From an uncultured Bacteroidales bacterium (GTDB lineage Bacteria; Bacteroidota; Bacteroidia; Bacteroidales; Paludibacteraceae), in the NCBI GenBank assembly GCA_902778935.1, contig CACYZT010000004.1, positions 1 to 64,000 of the forward strand: 64,000 nt of DNA. Direction: 5' to 3'. Below, piece after piece: positions 12,105-58,178 of this stretch; within the stretch, counting starts at the first letter, position 1; every line of letters begins with the position of its first letter. A program made the position numbers and the translations under genes. Under the pieces are notes generated by a model. That model saw nothing but the letters and a program-made list of their open reading frames with translations, was not told where the DNA came from and did no database searches.

Positions 12105-12139
12105 GCCGTTAAACTGTTAAATCGTTAAATTGTTATACC
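12100..12139. repeat. Five-unit 8-base repeat filling the yhcH-glgB gap
   Basis: Five consecutive 8-base units of the form GTTAANNN (the last GTTATACC) run from the yhcH stop codon to the base before the glgB ATG. A shorter copy is at 17464-17484. Confidence 0.85.
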
Positions 12140-17463: not shown

Positions 17464-17484
17464 GTTAAGCTGTTAAATTGTAAA
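17464..17484. repeat. GTTAA-type 8-base repeat, short copy
   Basis: GTTAAGCT then GTTAAATT then a decayed unit, between parE and the small membrane-protein gene. Same type as 12100-12139. Confidence 0.6.
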
Positions 17485-23689: not shown

Positions 23690-23716
23690 TTGGCTATTAG
23701 CTATTGGCTGTTAGCC
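23690..23716. repeat. Period-7 repeat (TGGCTAT type) at the HIT gene end
   Basis: Units TGGCTAT, TAGCTAT, TGGCTGT, TAGCC follow each other, running into the HIT stop codon (23711-23713). The same type occurs inside miaB at 25651-25692, and a related TGGTGAT type is in tsaB at 29602-29640. Confidence 0.8.
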
Positions 23717-24121
23717 TTTCTTCTCGATAGCCTCTGCAATCGAGTTGGCGATGATAGCCATCTCCTCAGCAGGCAAGGATAGTTTTGGATTGGAGAAGAG
23801 CATGTCTTTCTCCGAATTCATTGGGACTAAATGCACATGCACATGGTTTACCTCCATACCCAAGACAGCTACACCTACACGTTTGCACCCCGTGGCTGCT
23901 TTGATGCCCCGAGCCACTTTGGCAGCAAAGGTCATCAGAGATTGGAGTTGCTCGTCCGAGAGGTCGAAGATATAGTCCGCCTCCGGCTCTGCGAGTTTGG
24001 GAACAACGAGTGTGTGGCCCTTCACAAGCGGATTGATATCGAGGAACGCGTAGTTCTTATCATCCTCTGCTACTTTGTAGCTCGGAATCTCGCCTTTGAT
24101 GATTTTCGTAAAGATAGTCAT
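23711..24121 (-). CDS. HIT-family (HINT-like) nucleotide hydrolase
   Basis: 136 residues. TIFTKIIKGEIPSYKVAED (2-20) and NHVHVHLVPM contain the histidine triad His-x-His-x-His whose middle His attacks the alpha-phosphate of AMP-lysine or AMP-amide substrates. Cytoplasmic. It follows greA by 50 bases, all of which are a GATTGAC-type repeat. Confidence 0.95.
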   Translation of the reverse strand: MTIFTKIIKGEIPSYKVAEDDKNYAFLDINPLVKGHTLVVPKLAEPEADYIFDLSDEQLQSLMTFAAKVARGIKAATGCKRVGVAVLGMEVNHVHVHLVPMNSEKDMLFSNPKLSLPAEEMAIIANSIAEAIEKKG

Positions 24122-24124
24122 GGT

Positions 24125-24171
24125 GATTGACGATTGGACGATTGACGATGGACGATTTGACGATTGACGAT
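24125..24171. repeat. GATTGAC/GATTGGAC array filling the greA-HIT gap
   Basis: Alternating 7- and 8-base units (GATTGAC, GATTGGAC, GATGGAC, GATTTGAC) occupy the whole intergenic space from the HIT start to the greA stop. Bases 24125-24159 are identical over 35 bases to 29252-29286 inside tsaB. Confidence 0.9.
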
Positions 24172-24642
24172 TTAGAGAGATATTTCCAGGATTTCAAACT
24201 CCATCATACCTGCGGGTACTTGTACTTGCGCGATCTCACCCACTTTCTTACCGAGCAAACCTTTCGCTATCGGCGTAGTGACGGATATCTTTCCTTCCGC
24301 AATATTCGCTTCTCCTTCGGTCACGATTTGGAATACTTTCTCCATGCCGTTGCTTTTCATGCGTACGCGCACTTTGGTCAGAATCTGCACTTCGTCGGTA
24401 CGAATATCGGAAGCATCGAGCACACGTGCATCCATAAGACGAGCCTTCAGTTGCGCAATCTTAGTCTCGAGCACTCCTTGTGCCTCTTTGGCGGCATCAT
24501 ACTCTGCGTTTTCACTTAAATCACCCTTCTCACGCGCTTCTGCAATAGCGTCAATGATACGCGGGCGCTCCACAGTCTCCAACTGCTGGAGCTCCTCTTT
24601 TAGTTTTTTCAGACCTTCTTCGGTCATATACGTTACTGCCAT
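24172..24642 (-). CDS. greA: Transcription elongation factor GreA
   Basis: 156 residues. An N-terminal coiled coil (about 1-75) has the tip acidic pair in REKGDLSENAEYDAAKEAQG, and the C-terminal FKBP-like domain ends with GMMEFEILEISL. It stimulates RNA polymerase to cleave backtracked transcripts. A 35-residue ORF precedes it by 15 bases on the same transcript, behind a structured leader. Confidence 0.97.
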   Translation of the reverse strand: MAVTYMTEEGLKKLKEELQQLETVERPRIIDAIAEAREKGDLSENAEYDAAKEAQGVLETKIAQLKARLMDARVLDASDIRTDEVQILTKVRVRMKSNGMEKVFQIVTEGEANIAEGKISVTTPIAKGLLGKKVGEIAQVQVPAGMMEFEILEISL

Positions 24643-24657
24643 AATATAGATAGTGTA

Positions 24658-24765
24658 TTAAAATTTACGGTTTAGCAGTTCGCCGGCGATGATAGCCTTG
24701 CGAACCTCATCCATATCCGTCATGTCCGGAATCAGGATATCGCTATTTTGTTTTTCGTCATTCAT
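24658..24765 (-). CDS. 35-residue ORF upstream of greA
   Basis: ATG at 24763-24765, stop at 24658-24660. The peptide starts MNDEKQNSDILIPDMTDMDE and ends AIIAGELLNRKF. It is acidic at the N-terminus, amphipathic helical in the second half, and has no signal. Promoter, leader and 15-base spacing to greA support translation. It may be a small conserved protein or a leader peptide. I cannot name a family; too short for composition tests. Confidence 0.55.
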   Translation of the reverse strand: MNDEKQNSDILIPDMTDMDEVRKAIIAGELLNRKF

Positions 24766-24770
24766 AATAA

Positions 24771-24867
24771 AAATAAGGCATACGCCTTGTGCGGTTTAAT
24801 GGACAGAACTCTGTCTTTTTTCTTAAAAACGAAAGGAAACTTCACAGCCTCCTTTCGCCATTAAACC
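24771..24867 (-). ncRNA. Structured leader RNA ahead of the 35-aa ORF and greA
   Basis: A perfect 10-base inverted repeat (GGTTTAATGG 24793-24802 / CCATTAAACC 24858-24867) closes two inner hairpins: CGAAAGGA/TCCTTTCG (24830-24837 / 24850-24857) and GACAG/CTGTC (24802-24806 / 24811-24815). On the transcript they are followed by AAGGC-GTAT-GCCTT (24775-24788) and ATTTTTATT directly before the ORF start. The layout resembles a three-way junction plus terminator-like hairpin, that is, a possible riboswitch or attenuator. No match to a known class is recognised. Confidence 0.55.
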
Positions 24868-24901
24868 TAAACCTTAACTATGAAAATTTTTGTTTTCGGT
24901 A

Positions 24902-24933
24902 CAAAAGTACTGCTTTTATTTGACATGAGCAAA
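24902..24933 (-). promoter_or_regulatory. Promoter of the leader RNA-greA-HIT unit
   Basis: TTTG (24930-24933), 20 bases, TACTTTTG (24902-24909). Gives a leader of about 130 bases before the 35-aa ORF. Confidence 0.75.
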
Positions 24934-24961
24934 TATTTTTGCAAAAAAATGCTTATTTTGT

Positions 24962-26362
24962 TTATTTTTCTACTATTTTGCCCCTTAAAGTGGCAGCAGA
25001 GGCTTCCAAAACCTGCACTTGGACAACATCTCCTATCTTTTGATTAGAGCGCGGGAAAACGACTGTTTTGTACTGTTCTGTCCGTCCGTACATATCGTCA
25101 CGGCTCCGCTTGGAGAAGCCTTCCACCAGCACTTCTACGGTCTTTCCTATCTCGCGTTGGTTAGACTCGAGCGAGAGTTGGTTTTGCAGCGCGATAATCT
25201 CATTGAGGCGGCGCACTTTCTCTTCCTCGGGGATATTATCCGGCAGATGCTTATGAGCATAGGTCCCGGGACGCTCCGAATACTTGAACATAAACGCACT
25301 ATCAAAACCCACCTCACGCATCAGACTAAGCGTCTGCGCATGGTCCTCCAGTGTCTCGTCATGAAAACCGCAGAAGATATCGGTACTAATGGCAGCAGTA
25401 GGCAAGATACGCCGAATAGCGGCAATGCGGTCCAAGTACCATTCACGCGTGTATTTACGGTTCATCAGTTTGAGGATATGGTTCGAACCCGACTGTACCG
25501 CCAGATGGATGAACTTACATAGATTCTTATGGCGACTGATAGCTTCGAGCGTCTTGTCTGACATATCTTTGGGATGGCTGGTAGTGAACCGTATTCGCAT
25601 ATCCGGCACGGCGTCCGCCACTATCTCCAGCAGGTCGGCAAAGTCGATGGCGGCTGTTGGCTCTTGGCTGTTTGCTATTGGCTGATAGCGATAGGAGTTG
25701 ACATTCTGGCCGAGGAGGGTTACTTCCTTGTAGCCGCGGGATTGAAGGTCCTTGACTTCATTGAGGATGGACTCCACATCCCGGCTGCGCTCACGACCGC
25801 GCGTATATGGCACCACACAATACGAGCAGAAATTATTGCAGCCACGCATAATAGACACAAAACCGCTGATGGAGCGACCTATACGCGCCGGTATAATCTG
25901 ACGATAGGTCTCCGTGGTACTCAACTCCACATTCATCGCCTTATGTCCTTGTTTGCATTGCGCCAAGAGATTAGGGATATCCAGATAGGCATCCGGACCG
26001 GCTACAAAATCCACACCGTATCGGTCAATCAACTCTTGTCCCATTCGCTCGGCCATGCAACCGATGACGCCGACAATAGCCCGCTGAGCGGGCTGACCGG
26101 CTTCGCCTGCATGACCGCTATGCTGAAAAACCGCTTCGCTGAAAGACCGCTTCGCTAAAAGACTTTTCAGTTCGCGGAGGCGGGCACCGACTTTCTGCTC
26201 GGCGTTATCGCGGATGGAGCAGGTATTGAGCAAAATGATATCTGCGTCCTCCCAATGCTCAGTCATTTCAGCATCCGTAGTCTGCATAATAGCCGATACT
26301 ACTTCGCTGTCCGCGACGTTCATTTGGCAGCCGTATGTCTCAATATAAAATTTTTTTGCCAT
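24962..26362 (-). CDS. miaB: tRNA-2-methylthio-N6-dimethylallyladenosine synthase (radical SAM)
   Basis: 466 residues from ATG 26360-26362. The UPF0004 domain has [4Fe-4S] ligands Cys11, Cys48 and Cys102 (YGCQMN, LNTCSI, GCMAER). The radical-SAM cluster is CNNFCSYC (175-182), and a TRAM domain ends the protein. It adds a methylthio group to i6A37 of tRNAs. Two stretches are encoded by repeat DNA and look like in-frame insertions: about 71-95 (KRSFSEAVFQHSGHAGEAGQ and following), between the second and third cluster ligands, and about 225-238 (YQPIANSQEPTAA). The cluster ligands are intact, so the enzyme is probably functional. Confidence 0.95.
   Translation of the reverse strand: MAKKFYIETYGCQMNVADSEVVSAIMQTTDAEMTEHWEDADIILLNTCSIRDNAEQKVGARLRELKSLLAKRSFSEAVFQHSGHAGEAGQPAQRAIVGVIGCMAERMGQELIDRYGVDFVAGPDAYLDIPNLLAQCKQGHKAMNVELSTTETYRQIIPARIGRSISGFVSIMRGCNNFCSYCVVPYTRGRERSRDVESILNEVKDLQSRGYKEVTLLGQNVNSYRYQPIANSQEPTAAIDFADLLEIVADAVPDMRIRFTTSHPKDMSDKTLEAISRHKNLCKFIHLAVQSGSNHILKLMNRKYTREWYLDRIAAIRRILPTAAISTDIFCGFHDETLEDHAQTLSLMREVGFDSAFMFKYSERPGTYAHKHLPDNIPEEEKVRRLNEIIALQNQLSLESNQREIGKTVEVLVEGFSKRSRDDMYGRTEQYKTVVFPRSNQKIGDVVQVQVLEASAATLRGKIVEK
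25651..25692. repeat. Period-7 repeat (TGGCTNT type) in frame inside miaB
   Basis: Units TGGCTCT, TGGCTGT, TTGCTAT, TGGCTGA, TAGCGAT at 7-base period. Encodes YQPIANSQEPTAA in the loop after GQNVNSYR. Confidence 0.75.
26079..26163. repeat. Mini-hairpin array in frame inside miaB
   Basis: Successive roughly 16-base units, each a tiny hairpin plus a GA-rich linker: CCCGCTGAGCGGG + CTGA, CGGCTTCGCCTG, CCGCTATGCTGAAAAA, CCGCTTCGCTGAAAGA, CCGCTTCGCTAAAAGA. They encode SFSEAV-containing sequence between two Fe-S ligands. A unit shared with tsaB (GCTTCGCTGAAAGAC) is at 29478-29492. Confidence 0.8.
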
Positions 26363-26366
26363 AATA

Positions 26367-26398
26367 TTTGCATATTTCAAAAAAAAGTAGTACCTTTG
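26367..26398 (+). promoter_or_regulatory. tRNA-Pro promoter
   Basis: TTTG (26367-26370), 20 bases, TACCTTTG (26391-26398), 27 bases before the mature tRNA. Confidence 0.75.
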
Positions 26399-26425
26399 CA
26401 CCCGCTTTCGAAAAAACGAGAGCGA

Positions 26426-26499
26426 CGGGGAGTGGCGCAGCCCGGTAGCGCAACGGTCTGGGGGACCGGAGGTCGCGTGTTCGAATCACGTCTCCCCGA
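26426..26499 (+). tRNA. tRNA-Pro (anticodon GGG)
   Basis: 74 bases with a complete cloverleaf: acceptor CGGGGAG/CTCCCCG, D stem GCGC/GCGC with AGCCCGGTA loop, anticodon loop CTGGGGG giving GGG, variable AGGTC, and T arm with GTTCGAATC. The outermost anticodon-stem pair (27-43) reads A-G, a mismatch. CCA is not encoded (ACGA follows). Own promoter; a terminator follows at 26502-26531. Confidence 0.93.
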
Positions 26500-26501
26500 C
26501 G

Positions 26502-26531
26502 AAAAAGGATGGTCTTCGGCCGTCCTTTTTT
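26502..26531. terminator. Terminator of tRNA-Pro, also facing porW
   Basis: A5, GGATGGTC, TTCG loop, GCCGTCC, T6. Symmetric, so it can also end the porW unit on the minus strand. Confidence 0.85.
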
Positions 26532-26558
26532 GGTAGACGGATTCCAACACGCGGGTAA

Positions 26559-29207
26559 TTATTGGGCAGTGATTAAAGGCAGGTTAACTTCGGTTACTGC
26601 CTTTAATTGTATTCCAAGGAGCACAGCCTGCATATCGGGATTGTTCTGAATCAAATCGAGCCACCACTCCGCTTCATCCATATCTGCAAAGCCGCTCACG
26701 CGCAAAGCACATGTCTGCCCGAAGACCGGCATCTTCTGCAAGTCGAAATCACGAATGAGGAACTGGGAGAAGTTAAACAACGCCACTTCATAGAGTAGGT
26801 CATTGAGTGCCTGTTCGTCTTCTTTAGGCAAGATGAGCAATACGACAGAGGGTTGCTTACGGTCTTCGCTCCACTGCTGTTCCATTGCGGTAGAATCCGT
26901 TTGTTCGGTCTCTTCCGTCTGATTACGCAGTTCTGCCAGATCGCCTGTAGAGCCACCTTTCTGGCTCTCCATACCCTGCCCCATCATCGCGAGCATATCT
27001 TTTGCCATCGAACCCAGTTCAGAGGAGCCATACCGGTTCACGAGGTCCCGAAGTTCAGCGACGAACGCCTCTTGTCCTTCCGTACGGGCCACCGAAATGG
27101 CATTGAGGAAGAGGAAACGCGGCATCAAGCGGCTCTGCGGGTACTCTGCTTCCGCATACAGCTTGTTCGCTTTGACGGCTGCATACTCGCCTTGGGTATA
27201 AGCCGTATAGGTAGCCGAATAGAGCGAGTCCTGCTCGTCCAACATCTTCCGCATGCGGGCGATATATGCTTCATCATGGCGCAATGCGCGAAGTTCCATA
27301 TCTTCGTTTATAGCAAGCACAGAGGGATGCGTTCCCCATTTCGACTGCAAGAGCCGAAGTGTCTCAGCTGCCAAGGATTCGTCCTCCAGGCGGTCAAGGT
27401 AGATATAATAGAGCGCTACGAGCGCTTCGCGCCAGAGACTATCGCTGATGGCGAAGTCTTCATCGGTACGCGGTATTTGCTGAAGGTAATATCCGGGTTT
27501 GTGATTATCGGTCTCCAGCACGACGGGAGCCACCTGTTGTGCAGAGTCCGCGACAGCCGTTGTATCGGACAAGTCGGACTCTTCGGATGAGTCAGAAGAC
27601 TCCTCCATCGAAGCGGTTACCTGTTTATTCTTTCGGCGCCAGTTGTCCTCCAGCGGACGATTACCCCAACGGCGCCTCCATTCCTGCTGTCCCTGCTTGA
27701 CGAGCTGCGGATTATAGAAATACCATTCGCCTTTCTGTCCACCACCGCCACCTAACATATTGGCTGTATTGACACTTCTCAGTCCATCGTCGCCACGCGC
27801 CAGTTCACGCGCCAACTGCGCCTGTTCCACCGAATCGGCTTTCTCTTGGGCTATGAGGTCAGCGATTATCTTCTCCACGATAGCGAGTTGCTGCTCTTCG
27901 GTCATTTGGCTGAGCCGCTGTAGCGAATCTTGCAATTGCGCCTGAGAATAAGCCACAATGAGTTCGTCAAGCACCTCGGAGCGCTTCTGGATACGCGCAT
28001 AGTCATTGTGCTCCGCCGTAAGAATAGTAACCGCTTCGCGATAGCAAGGCTGGGCATGCACATAATCACGCATATCATAGTATATATCTCCTGCACGAAC
28101 GAGTACTTCCGCCTTGGCAGTACCCGCCTGCGTGGATTCGGCAATCGCTTTCTCATACATCTCCAGTGCGAGGACAGTATCCTTCTCACGCATGTAGATA
28201 TTACCCATCGCACCGTATATGCGGTCGAGACGGTCTTTGAACTTAGACTGCTTGGTCATCGTCTTGAGTTGGCGGAGCGAGTTACGTCCACCCAATTCCG
28301 CTATACGGATGCGGGCATTGAACTCCATCTCATTCGGCGGCGCCATCCGTACCACGGATTTATACGACTGCAGCGCCTCGTCACGCCGATCGTCCTTCTC
28401 ATAGAGTTGCCCGAGAACATAAGCAAAACGCGGGCGGTATATCTTCCGCTTCTCATACGGCAGCGCCAGTTTGACAAAGGGAATGGCCTCCCGGTAGTGC
28501 TCGCCCTTGAGCAATACATCCGCTTTGACGGCAGAATAGAGTTTGGCATGCTTACGACTAAGCGCATCTATCTGCACCCGATTGAGCATATCCTCCGCTT
28601 CGTACTGCCAGTCCATCTCGGCATACGCCCGTGCAATCCACAGTTGACATTGCGCAATCATATCCGCATCGTTCTGATAATGACGGATGATATAATTGAA
28701 GGTACTGACGGCACCGAGGAAATCACCTTTATGAAACTCCGCTTCGCCGAGTCTCATCCATGCCATACTCATCGCAGGATTGAACTCTTCGGATTGCAGC
28801 CATAGTTTGTATTTAGGATCGTTCGCCTTTTTAGGGTCTCGTTTCGGTTTCGCCTTGATAGAGTGCAATTTGATGCACTTACGGCATTTCTCAATCGTTC
28901 TATCCATCTGCGATTTGGAAGCCTCCGCGGCTTTATGGTTAGAAACGGGATAGAGATAGAGCACTCGGCTGTAGTCATCGGTATTAGCATCCCGAATAGC
29001 CTTGAGACCATCTTCATACGCCACATTCCCATTGTAAAGGATATTGTACTTCACCTTCGTCTTATGGAACGAACGGCTCGCCGCTGTATTCTTCTGCGTA
29101 GAGCAGGAGGAGGCCATTATCGCCAAGAAAGCGATAATAACTGAATATTGGAGATTTGAGATTGAACAATATTTACTTAAGGCCTTTAACATGGCTCTGA
29201 GCAGCAA
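26559..29207 (-). CDS. porW: Type IX secretion system periplasmic lipoprotein PorW/SprE
   Basis: 882 residues. A signal peptide ends with lipobox MASSC (Cys35). KVKYNILYNGNVAYEDGLKA (51-70) and the block around 490-525 with GEWYFYNPQLVKQGQQEWRR then WGNRPLEDNWRR are signatures of PorW/SprE. Between them are TPR repeats (about 145-420). A disordered Ser/Asp/Glu-rich stretch (about 530-560) and a C-terminal domain follow. PorW links the PorK/N ring to the SOV translocon in the type IX secretion system. It overlaps tsaB by 35 bases at the first ATG (a second ATG at 29190-29192 is possible) and is the last gene of the unit that begins with the barrel at 39724. Confidence 0.88.
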   Translation of the reverse strand: MLLRAMLKALSKYCSISNLQYSVIIAFLAIMASSCSTQKNTAASRSFHKTKVKYNILYNGNVAYEDGLKAIRDANTDDYSRVLYLYPVSNHKAAEASKSQMDRTIEKCRKCIKLHSIKAKPKRDPKKANDPKYKLWLQSEEFNPAMSMAWMRLGEAEFHKGDFLGAVSTFNYIIRHYQNDADMIAQCQLWIARAYAEMDWQYEAEDMLNRVQIDALSRKHAKLYSAVKADVLLKGEHYREAIPFVKLALPYEKRKIYRPRFAYVLGQLYEKDDRRDEALQSYKSVVRMAPPNEMEFNARIRIAELGGRNSLRQLKTMTKQSKFKDRLDRIYGAMGNIYMREKDTVLALEMYEKAIAESTQAGTAKAEVLVRAGDIYYDMRDYVHAQPCYREAVTILTAEHNDYARIQKRSEVLDELIVAYSQAQLQDSLQRLSQMTEEQQLAIVEKIIADLIAQEKADSVEQAQLARELARGDDGLRSVNTANMLGGGGGQKGEWYFYNPQLVKQGQQEWRRRWGNRPLEDNWRRKNKQVTASMEESSDSSEESDLSDTTAVADSAQQVAPVVLETDNHKPGYYLQQIPRTDEDFAISDSLWREALVALYYIYLDRLEDESLAAETLRLLQSKWGTHPSVLAINEDMELRALRHDEAYIARMRKMLDEQDSLYSATYTAYTQGEYAAVKANKLYAEAEYPQSRLMPRFLFLNAISVARTEGQEAFVAELRDLVNRYGSSELGSMAKDMLAMMGQGMESQKGGSTGDLAELRNQTEETEQTDSTAMEQQWSEDRKQPSVVLLILPKEDEQALNDLLYEVALFNFSQFLIRDFDLQKMPVFGQTCALRVSGFADMDEAEWWLDLIQNNPDMQAVLLGIQLKAVTEVNLPLITAQ

Positions 29208-29946
29208 TGAATTCTTTGAGGTAATATGGTTCGTAATAGGCCAAATCTACCGATTGACGATTGGACGATTGACGATGGACGATTTGTTCGGCAAGCACAC
29301 CTACATAGCGGGCTTCCGGGACAATGTCGGGAATATAGTGCCAGTCCGGGTTCGTGAGAACCGATTGGCATTTGGCGGCGCCGTCGCCAAAGAAGAATAC
29401 AGACCGTCCTTCGGACTGACAGAATACAGACCCAGGTTGACCTGCTGACAGACCAAGGTTGACCTGCTGACAGACTGCTTCGCTGAAAGACTCTTCATTC
29501 TCGACCACGACAGCTTTTACTTCGCTGAGAGGATGCAGGTCCATATCGTATAAAGCAGTATAAACCTCCATACGGCGGGCATCGATGAGAGGGAGAAGGA
29601 GTGGTGATTGGTCATTGGTGATTGGTAATTTGTCTTTGGCAGCTGCACAGAGGACCTGAAGTGTAGGCACGGGGATAAGCGGGACATTGAGTCCATAGCA
29701 CAATCCTTTGGCCGTAGAGGTACCGATACGCAGACCGGTATAACTGCCCGGTCCCTCGGAGAGCCCTACTGCATCGATAGAGAGAGACTGCTGCTTGGCA
29801 AAGTGCAGCAGTTCCTCTATATAGAGAGGTAGCAATCGTGCGTGATTGCTACCTTCGAGGCATATACATTGCTTGAGCGGCTTGCCGTCTTTACAGACCG
29901 CTGCCGAACAAACAGATGTACTCGTTTCAATACATAATACTATCAT
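29173..29946 (-). CDS. tsaB: tRNA threonylcarbamoyladenosine biosynthesis protein TsaB
   Basis: 257 residues, longer than usual. CIETSTSVCSAAV (5-17) and GLSEGPGSYTGLRIGTSTAK (61-80) define the ASKHA fold of TsaB, partner of TsaD in t6A37 synthesis. Three stretches are encoded by repeat DNA: about 102-116 (KDKLPITNDQSPLL, period-7 repeat), 152-184 (FSEAVCQQVNLGLSAGQ and following, mini-hairpin array) and 220-235 (QIVHRQSSNRQSV, GATTGAC array identical to the greA-HIT gap). Three different repeat families in one small conserved gene is striking. The N-terminal half needed for fold and TsaD contact is intact, so activity is plausible. It starts 3 bases after the end of the 1116-residue cargo gene. 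Confidence 0.93.
   Translation of the reverse strand: MIVLCIETSTSVCSAAVCKDGKPLKQCICLEGSNHARLLPLYIEELLHFAKQQSLSIDAVGLSEGPGSYTGLRIGTSTAKGLCYGLNVPLIPVPTLQVLCAAAKDKLPITNDQSPLLLPLIDARRMEVYTALYDMDLHPLSEVKAVVVENEESFSEAVCQQVNLGLSAGQPGSVFCQSEGRSVFFFGDGAAKCQSVLTNPDWHYIPDIVPEARYVGVLAEQIVHRQSSNRQSVDLAYYEPYYLKEFIAAQSHVKGLK
29252..29286. repeat. GATTGAC array in frame inside tsaB
   Basis: 35 bases identical to 24125-24159, here coding for residues around 220-232 of TsaB. Confidence 0.9.
29397..29494. repeat. Mini-hairpin / TGACAGA array in frame inside tsaB
   Basis: Units consist of a small hairpin followed by TGACAGA: GTCCTTCGGAC, CAGGTTGACCTG (twice), then GCTTCGC plus GAAAGAC. Bases 29426-29453 are identical over 28 bases to 39922-39949 in the intergenic array. 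Confidence 0.88.
29602..29640. repeat. Period-7 repeat (TGGTNAT type) in frame inside tsaB
   Basis: TGGTGAT, TGGTCAT, TGGTGAT, TGGTAAT, TTGTCTT in sequence. Encodes KLPITNDQSP on the minus strand. Confidence 0.85.
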
Positions 29947-29949
29947 CTA

Positions 29950-32900
29950 TTATCTCACCATTACATGATGGATGGTACGACTGTCATTGCCCTGGAGGAC
30001 AAGGAGGAAGTAACCCGTTATACCCGGCGCAACGATATCGGAATTGTCATAGGTATCGGTATGATGTACCCGTCCAAGCATATCCACCCATGTGGCAGTA
30101 CCTTTGCCTTGTACGTGCATTGGTGCGGATAGCGGTACGAGCGAAGGCAGATCCGCTATCTCTGCCGGCACAGCCGTAGGAATGAACGGACAGGTAAAGA
30201 GTTTGACACCATCATTACGCGTCAGCAACGCCGTATATTCACTGCCGAACTGGAGTTTGTTACCCATGCCGGCATAGTAGTTGAAGTCAATAGCTCCTTC
30301 GATAGGCAGTCCACCGAGATACCACTGCACGGAATCGAACTGATAGCCTCCGTTATAATCCGCATTGCGGATAGCGAGCACGTCATTCCAGCGCTGGGTG
30401 ATGACATCCTTGGAGTAATTCATCGTAACCGTGAACGGAATGGTGACGCTGAACTCCGGCATCGAATCCACCAAGAGCAGGGTACCATTATACACATTAG
30501 GATAGATATCATCGAGCGGCAGGTCAGTCTGATAGTGTCCTTTCTTCTGCATACCATTGATGAGGGTATCGCCTATCTCAGGGCTTGAGAAGGAATAGGA
30601 GGCACGGAGACTCCGTCCACGTGCTATATCATAGATGATAGAAAGGACAGGATCACCTTCGCACAACACGTATGCCTGGTTAGGCATAGAGGCTATGAGG
30701 GACTCATAAATCTCGAGATTAAGCACCCACGTGGAGTCACAATTGGTAGGCGAAGGAACGGTATCGACCATGGTCTTCGTATCCACGCCATAGGTGCGGC
30801 CATGATAGGTAAACGGCAGGCTCTCGGGGAGCAGCATCGTATCCTCGTAGATACGGAGCGGCTCAATGAGCTTGAGATAGAGGATACTATCACAAGATGT
30901 CTCGGCATTGAAGAGCACGATGGAGTCCAGTCCGTAGTCATGATAAGCCGTGTCGGGCTTCTCGGGCCATACATATCCGGCTTTGCGGTCCGCATCGCAG
31001 AGTACCATCGTCGTCGTATCACGCGTTGCGCCCAGCGGGTCAAGATGCAGACTATAGGTCAACTCATCATCGCAGGTACCGCAGGTCACACGCAGTTTGA
31101 CTTGGTAATCACCTCCCGCACTCGGGAAATTGAATGTCGGTTTCACTTCATTCGAATAGATGGACGTGCTATCCTTCATATTCAGCACTTCCCATTCGTA
31201 ATACTCAATATGATAAGCTTCGCTCTTAGAAGTATCACCCGTCACGTGGTCGATCTCCTGTACCCAAGACTGCGAAGCATCAAAGGAATAGGTATATTTC
31301 TCTTCCTTACAGTTCATCTTGCGGCGGGGCTTGCTTATCTTAGCAATCGGGTTGGTAGCCAGCGTAGAAGCATAGAGGGAGAAATAGCAGGTACTATCCT
31401 GGACGAACATACAATCGACCACATAGAGGCTGTCATCCTGCAAACCTGCCACATAGTGCTGACCACGGCCCAAAACATACTGCTCAGGTACGGAACCATT
31501 CTTACGACGATATTTCTCGCTGGAGGCATACATCCACCGGTATTCAAATCCGTCGGGAGCATCAAACTCGGGGTTGATCTCACCGCACTTCATTCCCTTT
31601 AGTTTACCATCGGAGCAACCGAGAGTGAAGTAGGCATATCCGCAGTGCGCCGAATACGTACAGTCGTGCGTAGTTAAACGTGCTGTAATCGTCTTGCCGG
31701 CATACTCTTTCTTTTTGAGATTGACACCGACCGTGGTCCACTCTTTCCAAACCATCGGTTCGTATCCTTCCTGGGCAGGCGTCAAATGCCATCCCTGCTC
31801 AGCAGCACCAGGCAGGAGGGTTGAGCCATTGAATACATCATTACAGTTAAAGTCCGCTTTTCCGCAGTCGCCTATTGAGACGCCATTAATAAGAATATCC
31901 AATTTGAATCGCGGGTTGGCAGCTGCTATCTGGTGGCCCGGCGCTTCCAGAACCGGCAAGTACTTAAGCAAAAGAACCGGATGCTTGATAGTATCCACCT
32001 CGAAGGAGAACTCTATACGCTCTGCTTGATTGCCGGCTTCCCAGTTACCCAAACGCACGGATGCAAATTCGCCATCAGGAATGGTTTTCGCCAAGTTACC
32101 GGTACGCGGGTCTCTCTCATTGCGATTGAAATGGAGCGTATGACGGCTACCACCACTGGACGGACCTTTGTCCACCGGAGCCACCACACGGAAATCATTA
32201 AACACATCCGCGTCCTCATCCGGCGACGAGTTATTCACATAACAAACCGCATTATTGAGATTCAGATAGTCCACACAGAGTTCATCGGGATAATAGATGA
32301 GAATGGACTCAATCGTTTTGAGACTATAGAAATTATCATCGCATTTAGCACGCACCACGAAGTCCGCCTGTCCGATAGGCAAAGAGGGGAAATGATAAGT
32401 CGTATCCGCCACGATGTATGGACCGAACCATGCTCCGGCACCATCATTGGCATCATAGCAATATGCGCTGACCTCATATTCAGCGGTGGTGCCTTTCCAC
32501 GACAAATCCACGGATTTGCCATTGGGAGTAATGACCAGATTGGTAGGCGCATCACAAGGAGGAACATCCGATATATTGATGTTATCAACCACTGCACCCG
32601 GCTGCTGAGCAGGGTAAGTACCGTTACTCCAAGCGAAAGCAAGGTAGTGGGGCGTACCGTCACACTTATTACCCGGAAGATAAGCCACGCACTGATGCCA
32701 TGTAGAAGCACCGCTGAGGCACTCCATATTCGCCACATACGGCTCGAGGTCAATCACCTCGATATAATCCTGGTCATAGGTTGAAGGTATATATCGGTTG
32801 TAGTTGTTACTGGACATCACCCGAACAGAGTCACCTGTAACCGGCTTCGTCATCGGAATCCATAACAAGTATAAGCCCTCGTAGTTGATTTCGGAGGAAC

Positions 32901-33300: not shown

Positions 33301-36300
33301 CTATCATTGTTTGGGCTTGTGTTTCGCCCTGTGTATTAACAGATTTGATGATATAGACACCGGGTTGGGCAGGAGCAATCAAAGAAGTGTATCCCTGCTG
33401 CATATCAAAGGTGCTATAGAGTTGACCGGACATGGTGTAATACCAAACGGTAGTCGGATACGCCATATACATCGGTATGCGCTTTCCTCCCGTGACAAGC
33501 GTCGGGAAGGGCGTCTGGTCTTCGTGGTGAACCGGCTGTATCGGGCATGTAGTAATCGTAACACCATCAGCGCGCGTGAGCTCTACATAATAGTACGAAT
33601 TCTCATCGAGCGGCTGATAGAGATAGGAGTGGTTCTCGCCCAAGAGCGGCATACCGTCTTTATACCATTGGTAAGCCGTGAACTCAAAGCCGCCGTTGTA
33701 TTTCGGGCTGAGCAGCGTGAGCACATCATTCCATTTCTGCTCGACTATCGAGCTGCGATAGCGCACATCAATGGTACGTGTGAAGGTATGAGTACCACAG
33801 CAGAACTGATAATAGGTGAATGTAGCGGTATAACTACCCGGTGTGATATCCGCAGGATACGGGATATTCACTTCGCTCACATTCGTATAGATGACCGTGT
33901 CACGGAGCTCCGGCGTAGAGAAGGAGATAGAGAGGCTATCAAACACACCCTTGTCTATCATCAGCGGGATATAGAGATTCTGCTCATCTGCACACGCATA
34001 AGGCACGGTATCGAGCGACTGCTTGATACGCTCATTGACGGTAAGCGTCAGATAGATAGCGCTATCGCAATCATGGACGGTCTTGAGCATAATGAGGTAA
34101 TCATCCAGCGGTGTATTGTATTTGACGCCATTAATGATGAGCGACTGGTCATCACAAATAGAGTCATGGCGGTGGATATCCTTAATCTCAGGATACGCAT
34201 CCAGATAGAGAATCGAGATAGAGTCACAGCCGGCTCCATTGATATAGCGTCCCACATAGACGGTATCGGTATTAAACCACTGGTCGTCAAACTTGATGGA
34301 GTTCTCCGGGCAAGTAGAATAATAGAACCTCGTCGTATCCGAAAGGATTGAAGGCACAACGATGGTATCCACACGTGTACTATCGCAGGCATTCTCCGCA
34401 CCTATATAGCAAGTCATCGTCACTTCGATGGAGTCGCCTGCATTCGGACATGTATATTTCGGATTGGTAGCTGTACTCTCTCTCAAATCATTATCTGACA
34501 ATCTACGGAATCTCCAATACCAATCCTGACATGGTTCGTTAGTATGATGCTCGTATCCATCATATTTATTCATGACATGCGAGGTATTCTTGAAAGACAG
34601 AACACTCTTACACTCCTCCTTCACATTGTTGAATGAATATTCCGGCACCGGGAAACGCGGTGCGGAGAGTGTACTAATTTCGAAATAGCAGGACGGTTCT
34701 TCCACAAAGCTCACACGGCAAGTATATGTATGACGGCTGGCATCCACGATGAGTTCGCGCTCATGACTGACCGTATCGCCCAACTCGTTGTACCAAGCAT
34801 AGGCAAATCCCTCCGGTGCATAGCAGGTGATGGAAGCATCATTACCGCAGTTATTGGTCTCGATATGCGCGTTCACGCAATCAACGGTAAAGTAAGCATA
34901 GCCGAAGTGTCCACTTGCAACACAGTCCATGGTGGTAAAGCGCACCTTGATGGTCTGACCATGATAGGGCATGAGGTTCACACCTACCGTGGTCCAATCC
35001 TTCCATGCTACGGTAACATTACCGCCCTCCGTAGGATCGGGATTAGGAACATTAACAATAGTCCATCCGGCATCCACTGCATCCGAATAGGTAAAGTGCG
35101 CCTGTCCACAAGAAGCATCAATCAGCTGATCATTCTGGTCCAGCACTTCCATTCTAAACTCCGGTTCCCCAGAATGCCCCGGATCCTCCAGCACAACGGC
35201 ATATTTAATAAGCAAGATACCCTGGTAAACCGAGTCAACCGTAATCTCGTACGTAATGGACTCTGCTTCAGATCCATCCCTCCAGTTACCGAGACGCACG
35301 GATGCCAAAGCTCCGTCAGGCACCGTATGTAATCCGTTAGCTGTTGCGGGGTCCAACTCATTCGGATCCACATGCAATGTATGTCGGCTTTCAATCGCGC
35401 CCGGTCCAAAATCCAATATTCCTATATTATCATACGGAGAAACCGTTCCCGACGGATAACTACCATAGGTACATACCACATTCGGGCTATGGAGATCGAC
35501 ATAATTGACACAGTGATTTTCAGGACAATAAACCAGAATCATCGGCTTATACACATAACTGGTAATCAAATCGCCCTGAGAGGTAGAGAGCCGGGCACGT
35601 ACACGCACATCATAAGTACCCTCAACGATACGAGTGAGAATATATGAGCACTGCGTACCATTCTTTGAGAACCCTTCTTCTCCAATCGTTATTCCGTGTG
35701 CCTTCTGCCATGTAGGAGCACCTATCTTTCGCCATTCTACATCGAAATCCGTCAGACCGCTTTCCCAAGTAACAATCATGGTAGAGTCCTCGCAATGCGG
35801 CAGTCCCTCCACATTGGTGGGCTTTTTGATATTCGCCGAGTTAATCTGCACATTATCAATAGCTATACTCGAATGGCGGAGACTATCCTCACGATTGGCA
35901 TTCACCCATATAAAGACAATCGCACAAGGCATAGACGCCACCATAGAGCCTATATTGAGCTCATTCGAAGCAGACACATTAAGCCAACGCGGACTACCAC
36001 ACACAAAACGCTCACGGGAGGTACCAAGCTGCTCACATACGTTAATCACATCACCGGCGAGACGTCCCGTAGAAGTGGATGTGGGTGATAAAATCTTATT
36101 GATATCGTAATAATTGGTTGCCTGTGTATTGTTAATCAGCATTTGCTCCGGACAAACCATCACATAGAGTTTGGAGTTCGCCGTATCGCCTTCTCCCATC
36201 CAATCAAAACTGAGGTCATAGTGACCAGCGGACGGGAATTTATACCGCAAATATGAAACCACAATATTCGGATTGGAACCATACACGGGGTTCGCGTTAT

Positions 36301-36520
36301 CGGAAGATATATACAACGAGCGTTTGCCTTCGCTACGCGCCGCCGTTCCAATCATCCATTTATCTGTAGAAGTACCGGCATGGTAGTTTAACACCCAAGC
36401 CGACAAGTCTTCACTCTCCTCAAAACTACATTCATACGGCACACCGGTAGCCACAGTGGACTGCGACCATGCTAAGATGGCCGTCAAGAGTAGGCAATAT
36501 GTCAGTAATATGCGTTTCAT
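33293..36520 (-). CDS. T9SS-secreted multidomain surface protein
   Basis: 1075 residues with a signal peptide (MKRILLTYCLLLTAILAWSQ). The domain order mirrors its downstream neighbour: jelly-roll (GVPYECSFEESEDLSAWVLN), Fn3-like (about 240-320), second jelly-roll (PDGALASVRLGNWRDGSEAE; FGYAYFTVDC), PKD-like region and CDSI repeats (NGAGCDSISILYLDAYPEI; VHDCDSAIYLTLTV). The C-terminus, with WYYTMSGQL, IAPAQPGVYIIKSVN and QAQTMIVE, fits a type A sorting domain. No catalytic motif is visible, so an adhesin or matrix role is inferred. It overlaps the OmpA-like gene by one base and the downstream paralogue by 8 bases. Confidence 0.82.
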   Translation of the reverse strand: MKRILLTYCLLLTAILAWSQSTVATGVPYECSFEESEDLSAWVLNYHAGTSTDKWMIGTAARSEGKRSLYISSDNANPVYGSNPNIVVSYLRYKFPSAGHYDLSFDWMGEGDTANSKLYVMVCPEQMLINNTQATNYYDINKILSPTSTSTGRLAGDVINVCEQLGTSRERFVCGSPRWLNVSASNELNIGSMVASMPCAIVFIWVNANREDSLRHSSIAIDNVQINSANIKKPTNVEGLPHCEDSTMIVTWESGLTDFDVEWRKIGAPTWQKAHGITIGEEGFSKNGTQCSYILTRIVEGTYDVRVRARLSTSQGDLITSYVYKPMILVYCPENHCVNYVDLHSPNVVCTYGSYPSGTVSPYDNIGILDFGPGAIESRHTLHVDPNELDPATANGLHTVPDGALASVRLGNWRDGSEAESITYEITVDSVYQGILLIKYAVVLEDPGHSGEPEFRMEVLDQNDQLIDASCGQAHFTYSDAVDAGWTIVNVPNPDPTEGGNVTVAWKDWTTVGVNLMPYHGQTIKVRFTTMDCVASGHFGYAYFTVDCVNAHIETNNCGNDASITCYAPEGFAYAWYNELGDTVSHERELIVDASRHTYTCRVSFVEEPSCYFEISTLSAPRFPVPEYSFNNVKEECKSVLSFKNTSHVMNKYDGYEHHTNEPCQDWYWRFRRLSDNDLRESTATNPKYTCPNAGDSIEVTMTCYIGAENACDSTRVDTIVVPSILSDTTRFYYSTCPENSIKFDDQWFNTDTVYVGRYINGAGCDSISILYLDAYPEIKDIHRHDSICDDQSLIINGVKYNTPLDDYLIMLKTVHDCDSAIYLTLTVNERIKQSLDTVPYACADEQNLYIPLMIDKGVFDSLSISFSTPELRDTVIYTNVSEVNIPYPADITPGSYTATFTYYQFCCGTHTFTRTIDVRYRSSIVEQKWNDVLTLLSPKYNGGFEFTAYQWYKDGMPLLGENHSYLYQPLDENSYYYVELTRADGVTITTCPIQPVHHEDQTPFPTLVTGGKRIPMYMAYPTTVWYYTMSGQLYSTFDMQQGYTSLIAPAQPGVYIIKSVNTQGETQAQTMIVE

Positions 36521-38757
36521 CAGAATACTTGCTCAATATCTTCTCCGTCCGTACCGGTGATGACGAACTCTACACGACGGTTGAGCTGTCGTCCTTCTTC
36601 GGTATCGTTATCCGCTACAAACTCACGCTCACCCTTACCTTCGGCGGTCATACGCTCGGGCGCTACGCCACGCTTGATAAGGTCCGCACGTACGGCGTTA
36701 GCACGACCCTCGGAGAGAATCTGGTTCGCCTCATCCGAACCCACAGCATCGGTGTGACCGGTGATATGGATAGTAACAGAGGGGTTGAGCAGCAAGAACT
36801 CAGCGAGGTCAGCCATCGCCTGCTCAGACTGCGGGAGGATATAGGTCTTGTTCGTCGCGAAGAAGAGGTTCTCAATCTTGACTTTGATACCTTCCTTGAT
36901 ATGCTGCATATAGAGGTCGAAGGTGTCACGCACGAAATGGAGCGTATCATCCTTCGGCATATAGCCTGTTCCCGTCAAATGGGCGATATAATCACCCTCG
37001 GTCAGCGGCGTCTCGATGAATCCGTCATCCGAAGACTGCGCGGCATAGAGCACCGTGGTATCGGAGAGAGTGGTCAGACGAACGGCAGCCTCGATAGGTT
37101 GGCGTGTCTCCACATCATAGATATTCATACAGAGCGTGTAGATAATCGGCGCAGGAATACGCTCCATCGGCAGACGGAGGGTATCGAACGTAAACTCCTC
37201 GACCGTCTGGATAACTGTATCAGACGGGAAATAGCCATTCTTGGTAGCCGAGATACGGTATTGACCGGCAGCGAAACGTCCCTGCAAGAGGCCCTGACGG
37301 TTGGTATTTTTCTGCATGGTCTTGCCGGTCTCGACATTGGTAATCTCGACCGCTGCTCCATTAAGGGCAAGAGCCGTCTGCTCATCATACATAAAGACAC
37401 CCATACGCGGCGTAGGAGCCTTCGGATAGGGCTGTGTATATTTCTTGTGTCTCGGCAGTTCAAACCAAACCGCTATCTTTGCACCCACAAGGAAGGGGTT
37501 CACTTTAGCATTCACCGCAGATGAAGTAGAGAGGGCCGAGTTCGTCGGGAAATTCAGCGGGTTTGAATCCTCCATCATCACGGTAGGGATATCTATCGTT
37601 GCGGTAGGTGATTTGCGGTCAGGAGCCGGCGAGGGGCTAAGGGAATTCAACAAGCCATAGTCAGCAAAGAGCGATACGCGCAGTTTCGGCGTAGCGTCAA
37701 TCCACCGGTCGAGGTTGACACCTATCTCTGCACTTGCAGCGAGATTAAGTCCAAACTTAACAGACGTAGAAGGACGGTCAAGCGCTTGGTCGGTCACGAG
37801 CGTATGATTATACATATCGGTCATGCCGGCGATGAGCTCTTTATCTTCAATCGTAGTTGTGAAGGTACCACTGAGGGTAGATTTGCCCATAACGCCCATG
37901 CCGGCTTTGATACCAGCCTGCCAGAACAAAGGCACTTTCTTGAGCTCCATACCGAAGAGCAACGGAATCTGGGCGAAACCGCCAATGAGCTTGTCGTTCA
38001 GGGGATTGAAGAGATAATTATAGGTCATCTTATCGCCATAAGGCTGCATGCCATAGGAGAGAGCAAACGAACCATTATCCTGATTATAGATACCCATGAC
38101 GGAGTTATAGAACGTGAACTCGGCACCCACGGTCATCAAGAACTGACGATAGCGGAGCTGGTAACCCAGACCGAAGCCGCCTCCGACAAAACCTTTGTCT
38201 TTGTTCTTAAAGCCCGTCGGGTTGAGTCCCTCCGCGGCCGGTGCCTGATAATTGATACCGGAGGTGAAGAGATTGGAATAACCGACGAGCCCCCAGAAGC
38301 CGAGACGGTGCGCTATATCGCGCTCGTTATAGGCATTGGCTTTAGCATTGGCCTTGTCAATAGCCGCTATCTGCTCGAGGTATTGCTCTTTCTCCTCCGC
38401 CGCCGAGAGATTATTGCCGGTTGAAGACTTCGCCACGGAAGCCGTAGCAGGTTTAGCCTGCTGCGTTTTCGAGGGCTGAGCCTTCGCCTGCTGTCTCTGC
38501 TTCTGCTTAGCAGCCTGAGCCCGCGCCTGCTCTTTTTTCTTCTGAGCAGCCGCTTTCTCACGCTCTTTGGCAGCTTTGGCTTTAGCCTTCTCGCGTTCTT
38601 TGGCCTTTTTAGCCTTCTCTTTCTCTCTCTGCGCTTTAGCTTTCGCCTTAGCATCTACGGCATACAGAGCCGCTACGCTGTTATCTACTACGGAAGCCAG
38701 GGGAGCTACTGTAGCCATGCCCATGGCAAGGAGCAATATGTAGATGATTCGTTTCAT
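36520..38757 (-). CDS. OmpA-family outer-membrane/peptidoglycan-linking protein with Lys/Ala-rich linker
   Basis: 745 residues. A signal peptide-like start is followed by a very basic Lys/Ala/Arg/Glu stretch (about 36-105, KAKAQREKEKAKKAKEREK-like, likely a long helix). A beta-barrel-like domain (about 150-450, ending VWFELPRHKKY) resembles the barrel protein encoded just upstream. Two PEGA/CarboxypepD-like domains follow (GVFMYDEQTALALNGAAVEI; YDVETRQPIEAAVRLT), then an OmpA domain (about 635-745, ITGHTDAVGSDEANQILSEG with the Asp and Arg that grip diaminopimelate). Probably fixes the surface apparatus to peptidoglycan. Four bases after the barrel gene. Confidence 0.85.
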   Translation of the reverse strand: MKRIIYILLLAMGMATVAPLASVVDNSVAALYAVDAKAKAKAQREKEKAKKAKEREKAKAKAAKEREKAAAQKKKEQARAQAAKQKQRQQAKAQPSKTQQAKPATASVAKSSTGNNLSAAEEKEQYLEQIAAIDKANAKANAYNERDIAHRLGFWGLVGYSNLFTSGINYQAPAAEGLNPTGFKNKDKGFVGGGFGLGYQLRYRQFLMTVGAEFTFYNSVMGIYNQDNGSFALSYGMQPYGDKMTYNYLFNPLNDKLIGGFAQIPLLFGMELKKVPLFWQAGIKAGMGVMGKSTLSGTFTTTIEDKELIAGMTDMYNHTLVTDQALDRPSTSVKFGLNLAASAEIGVNLDRWIDATPKLRVSLFADYGLLNSLSPSPAPDRKSPTATIDIPTVMMEDSNPLNFPTNSALSTSSAVNAKVNPFLVGAKIAVWFELPRHKKYTQPYPKAPTPRMGVFMYDEQTALALNGAAVEITNVETGKTMQKNTNRQGLLQGRFAAGQYRISATKNGYFPSDTVIQTVEEFTFDTLRLPMERIPAPIIYTLCMNIYDVETRQPIEAAVRLTTLSDTTVLYAAQSSDDGFIETPLTEGDYIAHLTGTGYMPKDDTLHFVRDTFDLYMQHIKEGIKVKIENLFFATNKTYILPQSEQAMADLAEFLLLNPSVTIHITGHTDAVGSDEANQILSEGRANAVRADLIKRGVAPERMTAEGKGEREFVADNDTEEGRQLNRRVEFVITGTDGEDIEQVF

Positions 38758-38761
38758 GCGA

Positions 38762-39724
38762 TTATTGTTTTATGTTTTGGTTTCCACCACGTATGCGGTA
38801 GTTACGATCGACTTTGTAGTAATCATAGACATAGGACTTGCCATGACGCGGCAACTCGAATGCTACAGTATATTTGATACCTATATTGAAATTTCGGAAT
38901 GTTTTGCCGTCCGCCAGGTTACTGGTGATAAGCGGCTGAACATAGAACTGCACGCCTTGGTCGGGCGTCTCGCGATATTCAAAGATTGGACTTCCGCCCG
39001 AGCCGGTATGAAGATTGAGCAGACCGAAATCCACAAAACCCGCCAGATACATGCGTACTTTATCGGGATTGATACGGAACTGCTTATGCTTAAACATGTG
39101 ATTGATACGTCCACCTATCTCGACATGCGCCATGACATTCATATTCCACTTAAGGGGCATAACGCCGCTGGAGGTAGTCTGCCCGCTACTGAACTGATGG
39201 TTAATCATATCATAGAAATCATCGTAGTACTTGTCATACTCGCCATAAGTAGTAAAGACCGAGGTAGAGGAAGTGGAGCCATAGAAACTCATCGACACTT
39301 TCGGACCCACCATGAAATAGAACCGTCCCCACTCGCCACCGAAGAGCACGGGGATATTGAGATTGACCATGTGGGAGAGGTCACGGGCTTTATCCACGCG
39401 GACATGCATATCAAAGATCTGTCCTTCGGTATCCTTCATCGGGATAGACTCATCAACCTTAGCAATACGGTTCACATTGAGCTCATACATACCCTCCACA
39501 CCGAGGGAGAAGAGGAAATGATTGTACAGCAAGCGATAGTCGGCACCGATATTGGTATTCATACCGGCCGCAGCGGGCTGTTCGGGTATATTATGGAGCA
39601 GCGCAGAGTAGCCCAAATCGCCATGGAGGGATATGAAATTATAGAGCTCCGGATTGAGCCTCGTTTGAGCGCTTGCGCATACGCATATAAGCGTCAAAAA
39701 TAATATAGAAACGCCTCTTCTCAC
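38762..39724 (-). CDS. Outer-membrane beta-barrel protein
   Basis: 320 residues with signal peptide (GVSILFLTLICVCASAQT). Alternating aromatic/hydrophobic strands (LNIPVLFGGEWGRFYFMVGP; MAHVEIGGRINHMF; YLAGFVDFGLLNL) suggest a barrel. The end TVAFELPRHGKSYVYDYY parallels the barrel part of the OmpA-like protein (AVWFELPRHKKY), so the two likely share ancestry. First gene of the T9SS cargo unit; promoter 39759-39790. It could be a PorP-type or generic Omp barrel; not resolved. Confidence 0.75.
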   Translation of the reverse strand: MRRGVSILFLTLICVCASAQTRLNPELYNFISLHGDLGYSALLHNIPEQPAAAGMNTNIGADYRLLYNHFLFSLGVEGMYELNVNRIAKVDESIPMKDTEGQIFDMHVRVDKARDLSHMVNLNIPVLFGGEWGRFYFMVGPKVSMSFYGSTSSTSVFTTYGEYDKYYDDFYDMINHQFSSGQTTSSGVMPLKWNMNVMAHVEIGGRINHMFKHKQFRINPDKVRMYLAGFVDFGLLNLHTGSGGSPIFEYRETPDQGVQFYVQPLITSNLADGKTFRNFNIGIKYTVAFELPRHGKSYVYDYYKVDRNYRIRGGNQNIKQ

Positions 39725-39758
39725 AGACTATTTGCTACAATTATACGCATTTGAGCGG

Positions 39759-39790
39759 CAAAGGTACTGCTTTTTTCGCAAATATGCAAA
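39759..39790 (-). promoter_or_regulatory. Promoter of the barrel-OmpA-cargo-tsaB-porW unit
   Basis: TTTG (39787-39790), 20 bases, TACCTTTG (39759-39766). Confidence 0.75.
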
Positions 39791-39856
39791 TTTTTGCTAC
39801 ATTTTCGCTATTTTTTTTGCATTTTGCTATGTTTTTGTGCTAAAAGCAAGCGTGAT

Positions 39857-39952
39857 GACCGTCCTACGGACTGACAGACCGTTACACTGACAGACCACTG
39901 CGTTGACAGACCGCTGCGCTGACAGACCCAGGTTGACCTGCTGACAGACTGC
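39857..39952. repeat. Intergenic mini-hairpin / TGACAGA array
   Basis: Six units: GTCCTACGGAC, GTTACAC, ACTGCGT, GCTGCGC, CAGGTTGACCTG and a final partial, each followed by TGACAGA(C). The CAGGTTGACCTG part is identical over 28 bases to the in-gene copy in tsaB. It lies between a promoter and the terminator of the giant gene, in the 317-base gap 39725-40041. Nothing else coding is seen in that gap. Confidence 0.88.
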
Positions 39953-58119: not shown

Positions 58120-58178
58120 ATACTTATTGTTTTTATTAATAATTGACCTTTTGCTATAAAAACACAAAGTTTAGGGCG

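Follow-up and report, generated by a model that had tools for sequence, protein, structure and literature searches.

Short repeat arrays in variable loops of housekeeping genes in a genus of Paludibacteraceae, and their possible exchange between species

The STRR heptanucleotide repeats known from cyanobacteria use a few fixed unit sequences and lie mostly outside genes. Here we describe short repeat arrays in a 64,000-nucleotide stretch of an uncultured Bacteroidales bacterium of the family Paludibacteraceae (positions 1 to 64,000 of contig CACYZT010000004.1, assembly GCA_902778935.1; "the window"), which lie between genes and in frame within miaB, tsaB and rluD, and we follow them through 178 genomes of the genus, its own included, each species being represented by one genome. 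As with the STRR repeats, the arrays of the genus consist of tandem 7-base units and are short and dispersed, but its 119 period-7 arrays reduce to 57 canonical units, and 32 of the 61 arrays in the period-7/8 class of the window's own genome lie inside open reading frames (ORFs; crude call on the sample described below).

Other described systems resemble these arrays in part. The TAACTGA repeats of the Beggiatoaceae, reported also in five Bacteroidetes, are likewise direct repeats of period 7 whose arrays are short and scattered; the Beggiatoaceae genome repeats a single unit sequence, and most of its sets are found shortly before start codons. The same paper describes heptanucleotide repeats as occurring in scattered bacteria by a mechanism without proof, and cites a survey in which they are the commonest class in most genomes and polymerase slippage is proposed (PMC4679880). 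The genus differs from the Beggiatoaceae in its many units, in having about half of its arrays inside ORFs (crude call) and in the allele switching reported below. The Bacillus tandem repeats have a constant size, variable sequence and several families per species, all of which apply here, but their units are of 20-21 or 52 nt and coding repeats form a separate class (PMC8161180), whereas our units are of 7 or 8 bases and often inside genes. The tandem repeats of Borgs evolve fast, have formed recently, occur in genes and spacers with about half of them in ORFs, and are disordered in proteins (PMC9879509); the arrays here resemble them in these respects. However, Borg repeats within ORFs have unit lengths divisible by three and are nearly perfect (PMC9879509), whereas the units here are of 7, 8 and 16 bases and imperfect, and arrays with periods 7, 8, 11 and 16 are found inside ORFs of the own-genome sample (crude call). 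Rickettsia palindromic elements, of 105-146 bp with terminal inverted repeats, are inserted in frame in conserved protein genes (PMC2229807), as are the repeats in our alignments of miaB, rluD and glgB, but the miaB loop alleles are 18-96 nt long and mostly direct repeats, and the period-7 arrays are direct repeats as well. REP sequences are palindromes tagged GTAG or CGTC (PMC3733652). Their mobilisation by RAYT involves a Y1 transposase, for which the window's genome, at 90% completeness, has no match and G126 of the same genus has two. A literature search on repeats in this family returned none among the matches listed.

From comparison of the sequences we propose, with a probability of roughly 55%, that repeats grow by slippage, are rapidly replaced, and are exchanged between species as short patches, with selection filtering the outcome. 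Replication slippage, favouring a step of about 7 bases, would create and resize arrays in tolerant DNA, and the array at a given site would repeatedly be swapped for a different one. One route of replacement would be short-patch recombination in which the incoming DNA derives from another species of the genus, the transferred patch of about 40-55 bases comprising the array and a few flanking bases while the remaining gene stays unchanged; purifying selection would then retain only frame-keeping, stop-free changes in loops or spacers that tolerate them. The sequences themselves show the arrays, their density in the genus, their in-frame positions in loops, their turnover and the miaB alleles that distant species share without flanks; that slippage generates the arrays, that they are replaced by recombination with foreign DNA and that most sites have no function is what we infer.

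Evidence for exchange comes from miaB, which in the window (minus strand) has two variable loops: site A, a period-7 array at 25643-25690 encoding RYQPIANSQEPTAAID, and site B, a 16-base hairpin array at 26072-26164 encoding residues 73-94. Of 70 loci, 68 were kept at site A and 65 at site B; two of the rows lost are open and lack the end motif only, and at site B three further ones run into the locus edge. Comparing 64 of the 65 sequences, each from a different species, gives 2016 pairs, among which the body of the gene is at least 93% identical in 12, and six of these 12 are strongly different at one site. The six pairs come down to four lineages, three with a changed site A (G058, G136 and G106) and one with a changed site B (G144); we infer which member of each pair changed, the direction of change being not readable from the miaB tree. 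Each of the four switched alleles recurs at the same site in distant species. At site B the alleles of G144 and its sister G138 differ between flanks that are identical on either side (30/30 each), and the G144 allele has 53 consecutive bases in common with G136 and G108; compared with G136, G144 has 22/30 and 26/30 flank positions identical, with a background identity of 81%. At site A a 51-base allele is present in G058, G136 and G104, and in a more diverged form in G106 (86% identical to that of G136 and 92% to that of G058). Its exact runs are of 44 bases (G136-G104), 40 bases (G058-G136) and 37 bases (G058-G104) within alignments that are 78-81% identical; the 33-base alleles at this site have a mean identity of 0.65 over 370 distant-species pairs. 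In a tree of 67 miaB bodies without site A the 51-base allele needs four changes, and a single clade is rejected by the approximately unbiased test (p-AU 2.8e-49, with a bootstrap not fully settled). Replacement by a foreign patch would be the simplest account of these alleles, common to species that do not share the flanks. A preliminary description of the window had proposed a mobile or copy-generating process; for the period-7 arrays a mobile element that inserts afresh finds no support, since a 34-base stretch of the site A allele, sought with up to three mismatches in all 178 genomes, occurs in four only, once in each and at miaB, and what distant species have in common is the allele at that site, not its flanks.

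Arrays also turn over between close kin. Genomes G063 and G058 are 92-98% identical by segment; 14 of 24 G063 arrays are the same in G058, three are replaced, one site is empty and six have an unmatched flank, and in the reverse direction the 28 G058 arrays comprise 13 the same, four replaced, two empty and nine with an unmatched flank. Eight directed comparisons of close kin, in which sites recur, cover 114 arrays (48 the same, 13 replaced, five empty, 46 unmatched and two with flanks apart). At one site the G063 array faces a different G058 array of equal length (34) between flanks scored as 100% identical, and genomes about 96% alike differ at several sites in the presence of an array or in its repeat family. 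Such differences between sister genomes support the recent shared origin that the arrays had been given in the preliminary description. A further difference is a 139-base tandem duplication adjoining a tRNA gene in G058 (L116 ~12512), which is absent from G063.

The window contains two in-frame repeat sites in miaB, three in tsaB and one in rluD. Thirty loci were considered for each gene, of which we read 28 for miaB (two dropped), 29 for tsaB (one dropped), all 30 for rluD, and 23 of 24 taken for glgB, one of these (G048) with excess upstream sequence; the window's genome is one row in each alignment. Orthologues of all four genes differ exactly at the repeat sites and have there other repeats, other sequence or a shorter loop. 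MiaB is conserved in the genus (87-93% identical to the window's protein in 20 of 21 congeners compared) apart from the two loops, which lie at the repeat sites. Relative to the solved chain 7mjv_A, 22 residues (73-94) at site B replace two, and other genera have a short lysine-rich loop, for example SLKRKNKKLIV; the MiaB model from AlphaFold has moderate quality (mean predicted local distance difference test score, pLDDT, of 69.8), and we take from it no more than its low confidence at residues 82-91. In other Bacteroidales metagenome-assembled genomes (L177, L178, L206, L211, L219) repeat-like inserts are seen by eye in one or both MiaB loops. That coding DNA tolerates the arrays is supported by miaB, in which stops are absent from all 68 alleles at site A and all 65 at site B, and lengths are always multiples of three. 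The allele search was anchored at both ends in one frame, such that a broken frame would be a lost row, and the rows lost are open or cut by the locus edge, with no frame break seen in miaB. The reverse complements of the site B alleles have a stop in some frame in 62 of 65 cases, consistent with selection on orientation.

In TsaB, four loops carry repeat peptides that differ between species. In the window tsaB (minus strand) contains an in-frame period-7 array at site 1 (29602-29640), a hairpin array at site 2 (29397-29496), where the TsaB model (mean pLDDT 82.8) falls below 50 at residues 166-176, and a GATTGAC-type array at site 3 (29251-29286). The rluD gene (2111-3151, minus strand) has a variable loop at 2714-2773 that includes a GATTGAC-type array (2731-2753) and encodes HFEHSPFANRPIVNINDPDI; G002, G005 and G030 have the short loop YFGEKLDMNDPSI, and various repeat families are found elsewhere. 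The in-frame arrays reported earlier are thus present in miaB, tsaB and rluD, but not in glgB (12140-14230, plus strand), where the GTTAANNN period-8 array at 12100-12139 directly precedes the start codon, its first 5 bases overlapping ORF 11649-12104. The glgB insert is a palindromic element (ACCTCCCC..GGGAGG) in a variable loop at 12626-12679 that encodes NRKPHPTSPQGRRKSNEA; some species have the short loop NRGKKLKEKGG and others various repeat families.

Three further arrays in the window have no strand assigned. A TGGCTAT-type period-7 array (23690-23716) lies between the peptidase gene and the HIT gene end, a GATTGAC/GATTGGAC array (24125-24171) makes up nearly the whole greA-HIT spacer, and a hairpin array occupies 39857-39952. 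By eye the greA-HIT spacer is mostly filled by arrays of differing families among 30 loci, and is 1-2 bases long in three. The near-identical copies kilobases apart that had been described are confirmed: 24125-24159 and 29252-29286 are identical over 35 bases, and 29426-29453 and 39922-39949 over 28. The array positions given earlier likewise stand, apart from 17464-17484, which by eye is a loose repeat and does not appear in the list from Tandem Repeats Finder (TRF); this segment and the hairpin array at 39857-39952 lie outside the listed ORFs of at least 100 residues. Beyond them the window has two very long minus-strand ORFs at 40042-47871 (2609 residues) and 48223-58167 (3314 residues).

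The genome to which the window belongs (G000; the window lies within its contig 4) comprises 2.18 Mb in 41 contigs. We ran TRF on 384 kb of it, the window and 16 further stretches, six of which hold GATTGAC-family matches, five having been chosen for that, and obtained 122 merged arrays. In a second run 96 of 121 arrays fall into three classes of periods: 61 with periods 7, 8, 14, 15, 21 or 22, 22 with periods 16, 17, 24 or 25 (the hairpin class), and 13 with period 11. Inside ORFs, by the crude call, are 32 of the 61 and 11 of the 22 arrays in the first two classes; because ORFs cover 92% of the sequence yet hold about half of the arrays, density per base is much higher outside them. With a gap-free detector, 903 kb of the genus yields 119 arrays of period 7, 27 of period 8, 28 of period 11, ten of period 9, five of period 12, four of period 6 and none of periods 5 or 10. 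Periods divisible by three are not favoured, and the period is therefore not set by coding constraint. The same detector applied to 16 other genera of the family (377 kb) finds four period-7 arrays, such that the genus sample is about 12 times denser, a figure to be read with the composition of that sample: five own-genome stretches were picked for matches, close relatives each add to the count, and most of the congener sequence comes from around a single region. With the threshold made stricter there are 39 period-7 arrays in 315 kb of congeners, ten in 220 kb of own-genome stretches not picked for matches, and one in 377 kb of other genera, with none in one shuffle of each stretch; this strict gap-free detector also reports no arrays in the window, where 7- and 8-base units mix. 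Period-7 arrays of the TTTGTCC and AAATGG types (L068:5659-5690, L068:8585-8619, L071:6238-6266, L061:494-526) code, close to ORF starts, for hydrophobic stretches (LFVLCLLSFALCPAHA is one) that resemble signal-peptide cores, possibly the re-use of an array.

A whole-genome search for the units, as the preliminary description had envisaged, finds the 34-base form of the GATTGAC family at eight places in the 2.18 Mb (up to three mismatches) and the hairpin unit, defined by exact ends GACAGACC and TGACAGA, in 77 copies, compared with none for either reversed pattern. In the array at 39857-39952 the units are TGACAGACC plus a small hairpin, mostly of 2-4 pairs with a 3-base loop. Where the core has 7 bases (44 copies), the outer pair is G-C in 34 and A-T in ten, and the next pair C-G in 31, T-A in 12 and C-C in one; longer cores mostly have 3-4 pairs (three in 7/7 nine-base cores, four in 14/16 eleven-base cores). 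The mean outer stem of 31 distinct cores is 2.6 pairs compared with 0.7 after shuffling (maximum 1.5 over 2000 shuffles), and the two sides of the stem therefore change together. The glgB palindrome (12633-12664 in the window, about 35 bases, CCCACCC.ACCTCCCC..AAGGGAGG) is also dispersed in congeners, with at least 11 or 12 matches in each of G058, G033, G040, G017, G020 and G048, the glgB copy perhaps among them. In G058 (L115 ~4660) a 142-base insertion adjoining a GTGAAAG array has long inverted ends (GGTGGAGCGGTGGAGCGG), is absent from G063, and looks like a small hairpin element.

Whether arrays also spread within a genome receives mixed support. Words of 20 bases are shared between different sites of G000 in 37/4361 comparisons as against 11/16450 (12- to 13-fold), a contrast that we discount as coming from stretches picked for matches; in unselected stretches without the window the values are 2/1322 and 5/9100, a 2.8-fold difference that is not significant (p 0.22). 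Period-7 units agree within one mismatch in 12.6% of within-genome pairs and 8.0% of between-genome pairs, with 1/300 label shuffles as high, under the same selection bias. One family has 72 arrays in 38 of the 178 genomes, with a dispersion index of 2.6 that relatedness and completeness also affect. The copy-generating process proposed earlier would gain from this uneven distribution, and the unselected comparison does not bear it out.

Several observations weigh against the proposed scheme of slippage, replacement and exchange. The allele test at tsaB (20 of 29 sequences usable) gives no case comparable to miaB, its best pair being G090-G062 at site 3 (0.88, background 0.79). The palindromic glgB loops of G000, G034 and G058 match at 45/54, 44/54 and 50/54 positions and their flanks at 94-101/120, and the shared loop is thus hardly more alike than its surroundings. 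Within the conserved miaB body, exact runs average 24.2 bases over 300 pairs and 22.7 after codon shuffling, no clear excess that would point to exchange there; the control genera gave too few pairs in the same identity range for a judgement, and no segment was obtained from 4/20 control loci. Over longer stretches, 957 of 959 long exact runs shared by diverged species are not array-like by the criterion used, and exchange may therefore be general and the arrays may merely expose it. Among the 60 longest, a tRNA gene accounts for many and tsaB patches of 72-77 bases for some; at the 5' end of tsaB such patches are identical among G136, G017, G036 and G086 in compared stretches that are 72-74% alike. 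Loss of mismatch repair was considered and rejected, MutS1 being present in G000 and 23 of 24 congeners (the exception, G017, is 54% complete). Transfer in Bacillus at 17-23% divergence integrates 3-4 bp (PMC6382021), shorter than the tracts that we envisage.

Short-patch double illegitimate recombination would move short DNA patches with little homology. Replacement of short tracts without their flanks, as in the miaB comparison, fits such a process, and tsaB offers no clear case. Homology-facilitated illegitimate recombination would act similarly, and the proposed tracts of 40-55 bases fall between the 3-4 bp just mentioned and the mean of 130-340 bp integrated in Bacillus at about 15% divergence (PMC6382021). 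A bolder proposal is that a process of the genus carries short alleles of about 40-55 bases, without flanks, from one species to the corresponding site of a housekeeping gene in another, often enough for loop alleles to switch within a few percent of divergence, through unusually active short-patch recombination or a dedicated system acting on repeat-filled sites, and keeps fixed loops of essential enzymes hypervariable; we regard this as doubtful, if conceivable. Phages or plasmids as the source were rejected, two array stretches (32 and 25 bases) having no exact match in viral contigs; the 51-base allele has no match in phage or plasmid collections either, where a low-complexity filter may hide repeats.

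Slippage might also act alone, making arrays in place in each lineage, with similar alleles in distant species being convergent. The preference for period 7, a change in copy number of one family between G063 and G058, and the slippage proposed for heptanucleotide repeats by the survey noted above (PMC4679880) agree with this, but two observations make it unlikely: species about 80% alike have runs of 53 and 44 identical bases in common at one and the same site, with site-specific ends, and genomes whose segments are 92-98% alike carry different repeat families at one site. Long tracts moved by ordinary homologous recombination, or old shared polymorphism, would accommodate the tsaB patches of 72-77 identical bases and the right flank of G136 at site A, which is unlike that of its kin G108 (22/30). 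At miaB, however, the flanks mismatch those of the distant allele-sharing species within 30 bases of the allele, and we assign this explanation only a small chance.

A non-autonomous mobile element inserting in frame, in the manner of the Rickettsia palindromic elements or REP sequences, would be in keeping with the occurrence of both the hairpin unit and the glgB palindrome at dispersed places, with the many ORFs that hold in-frame arrays, and with the two Y1 transposase matches in G126, one of them over the cut-off, among four genus members searched. No such match is found in G000, G050 or G134, compared with 49 of 81 genomes searched in the family, and we rejected the REP/RAYT machinery on this ground; reverse transcriptases were not searched. 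Since the 51-base allele is confined to miaB and neither target duplication nor shared ends are seen by eye at the switched alleles, a mobile element seems rather improbable for the arrays; the hairpin and palindrome families could nonetheless be mobile elements. Finally, repeats mislead assemblers, and the close named relatives are metagenome-assembled or uncultured, such that an assembly or binning artefact has to be weighed. The miaB alleles all read without a stop, however, the loops vary in four genes and many genomes, and the exact matches between species at allele edges seem too short for usual assembly word sizes; we consider an artefact highly improbable.

In this genus of 178 genomes arrays turn over fast within well-conserved genes, and their loss, gain and exchange can be read base by base. 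If the exchange proposed here were confirmed, it would mean that species about 20% apart recombine in tracts near 50 bases, a scale that ordinary scans would miss. For housekeeping enzymes, the loops also serve as a natural experiment showing where insertions are tolerated.

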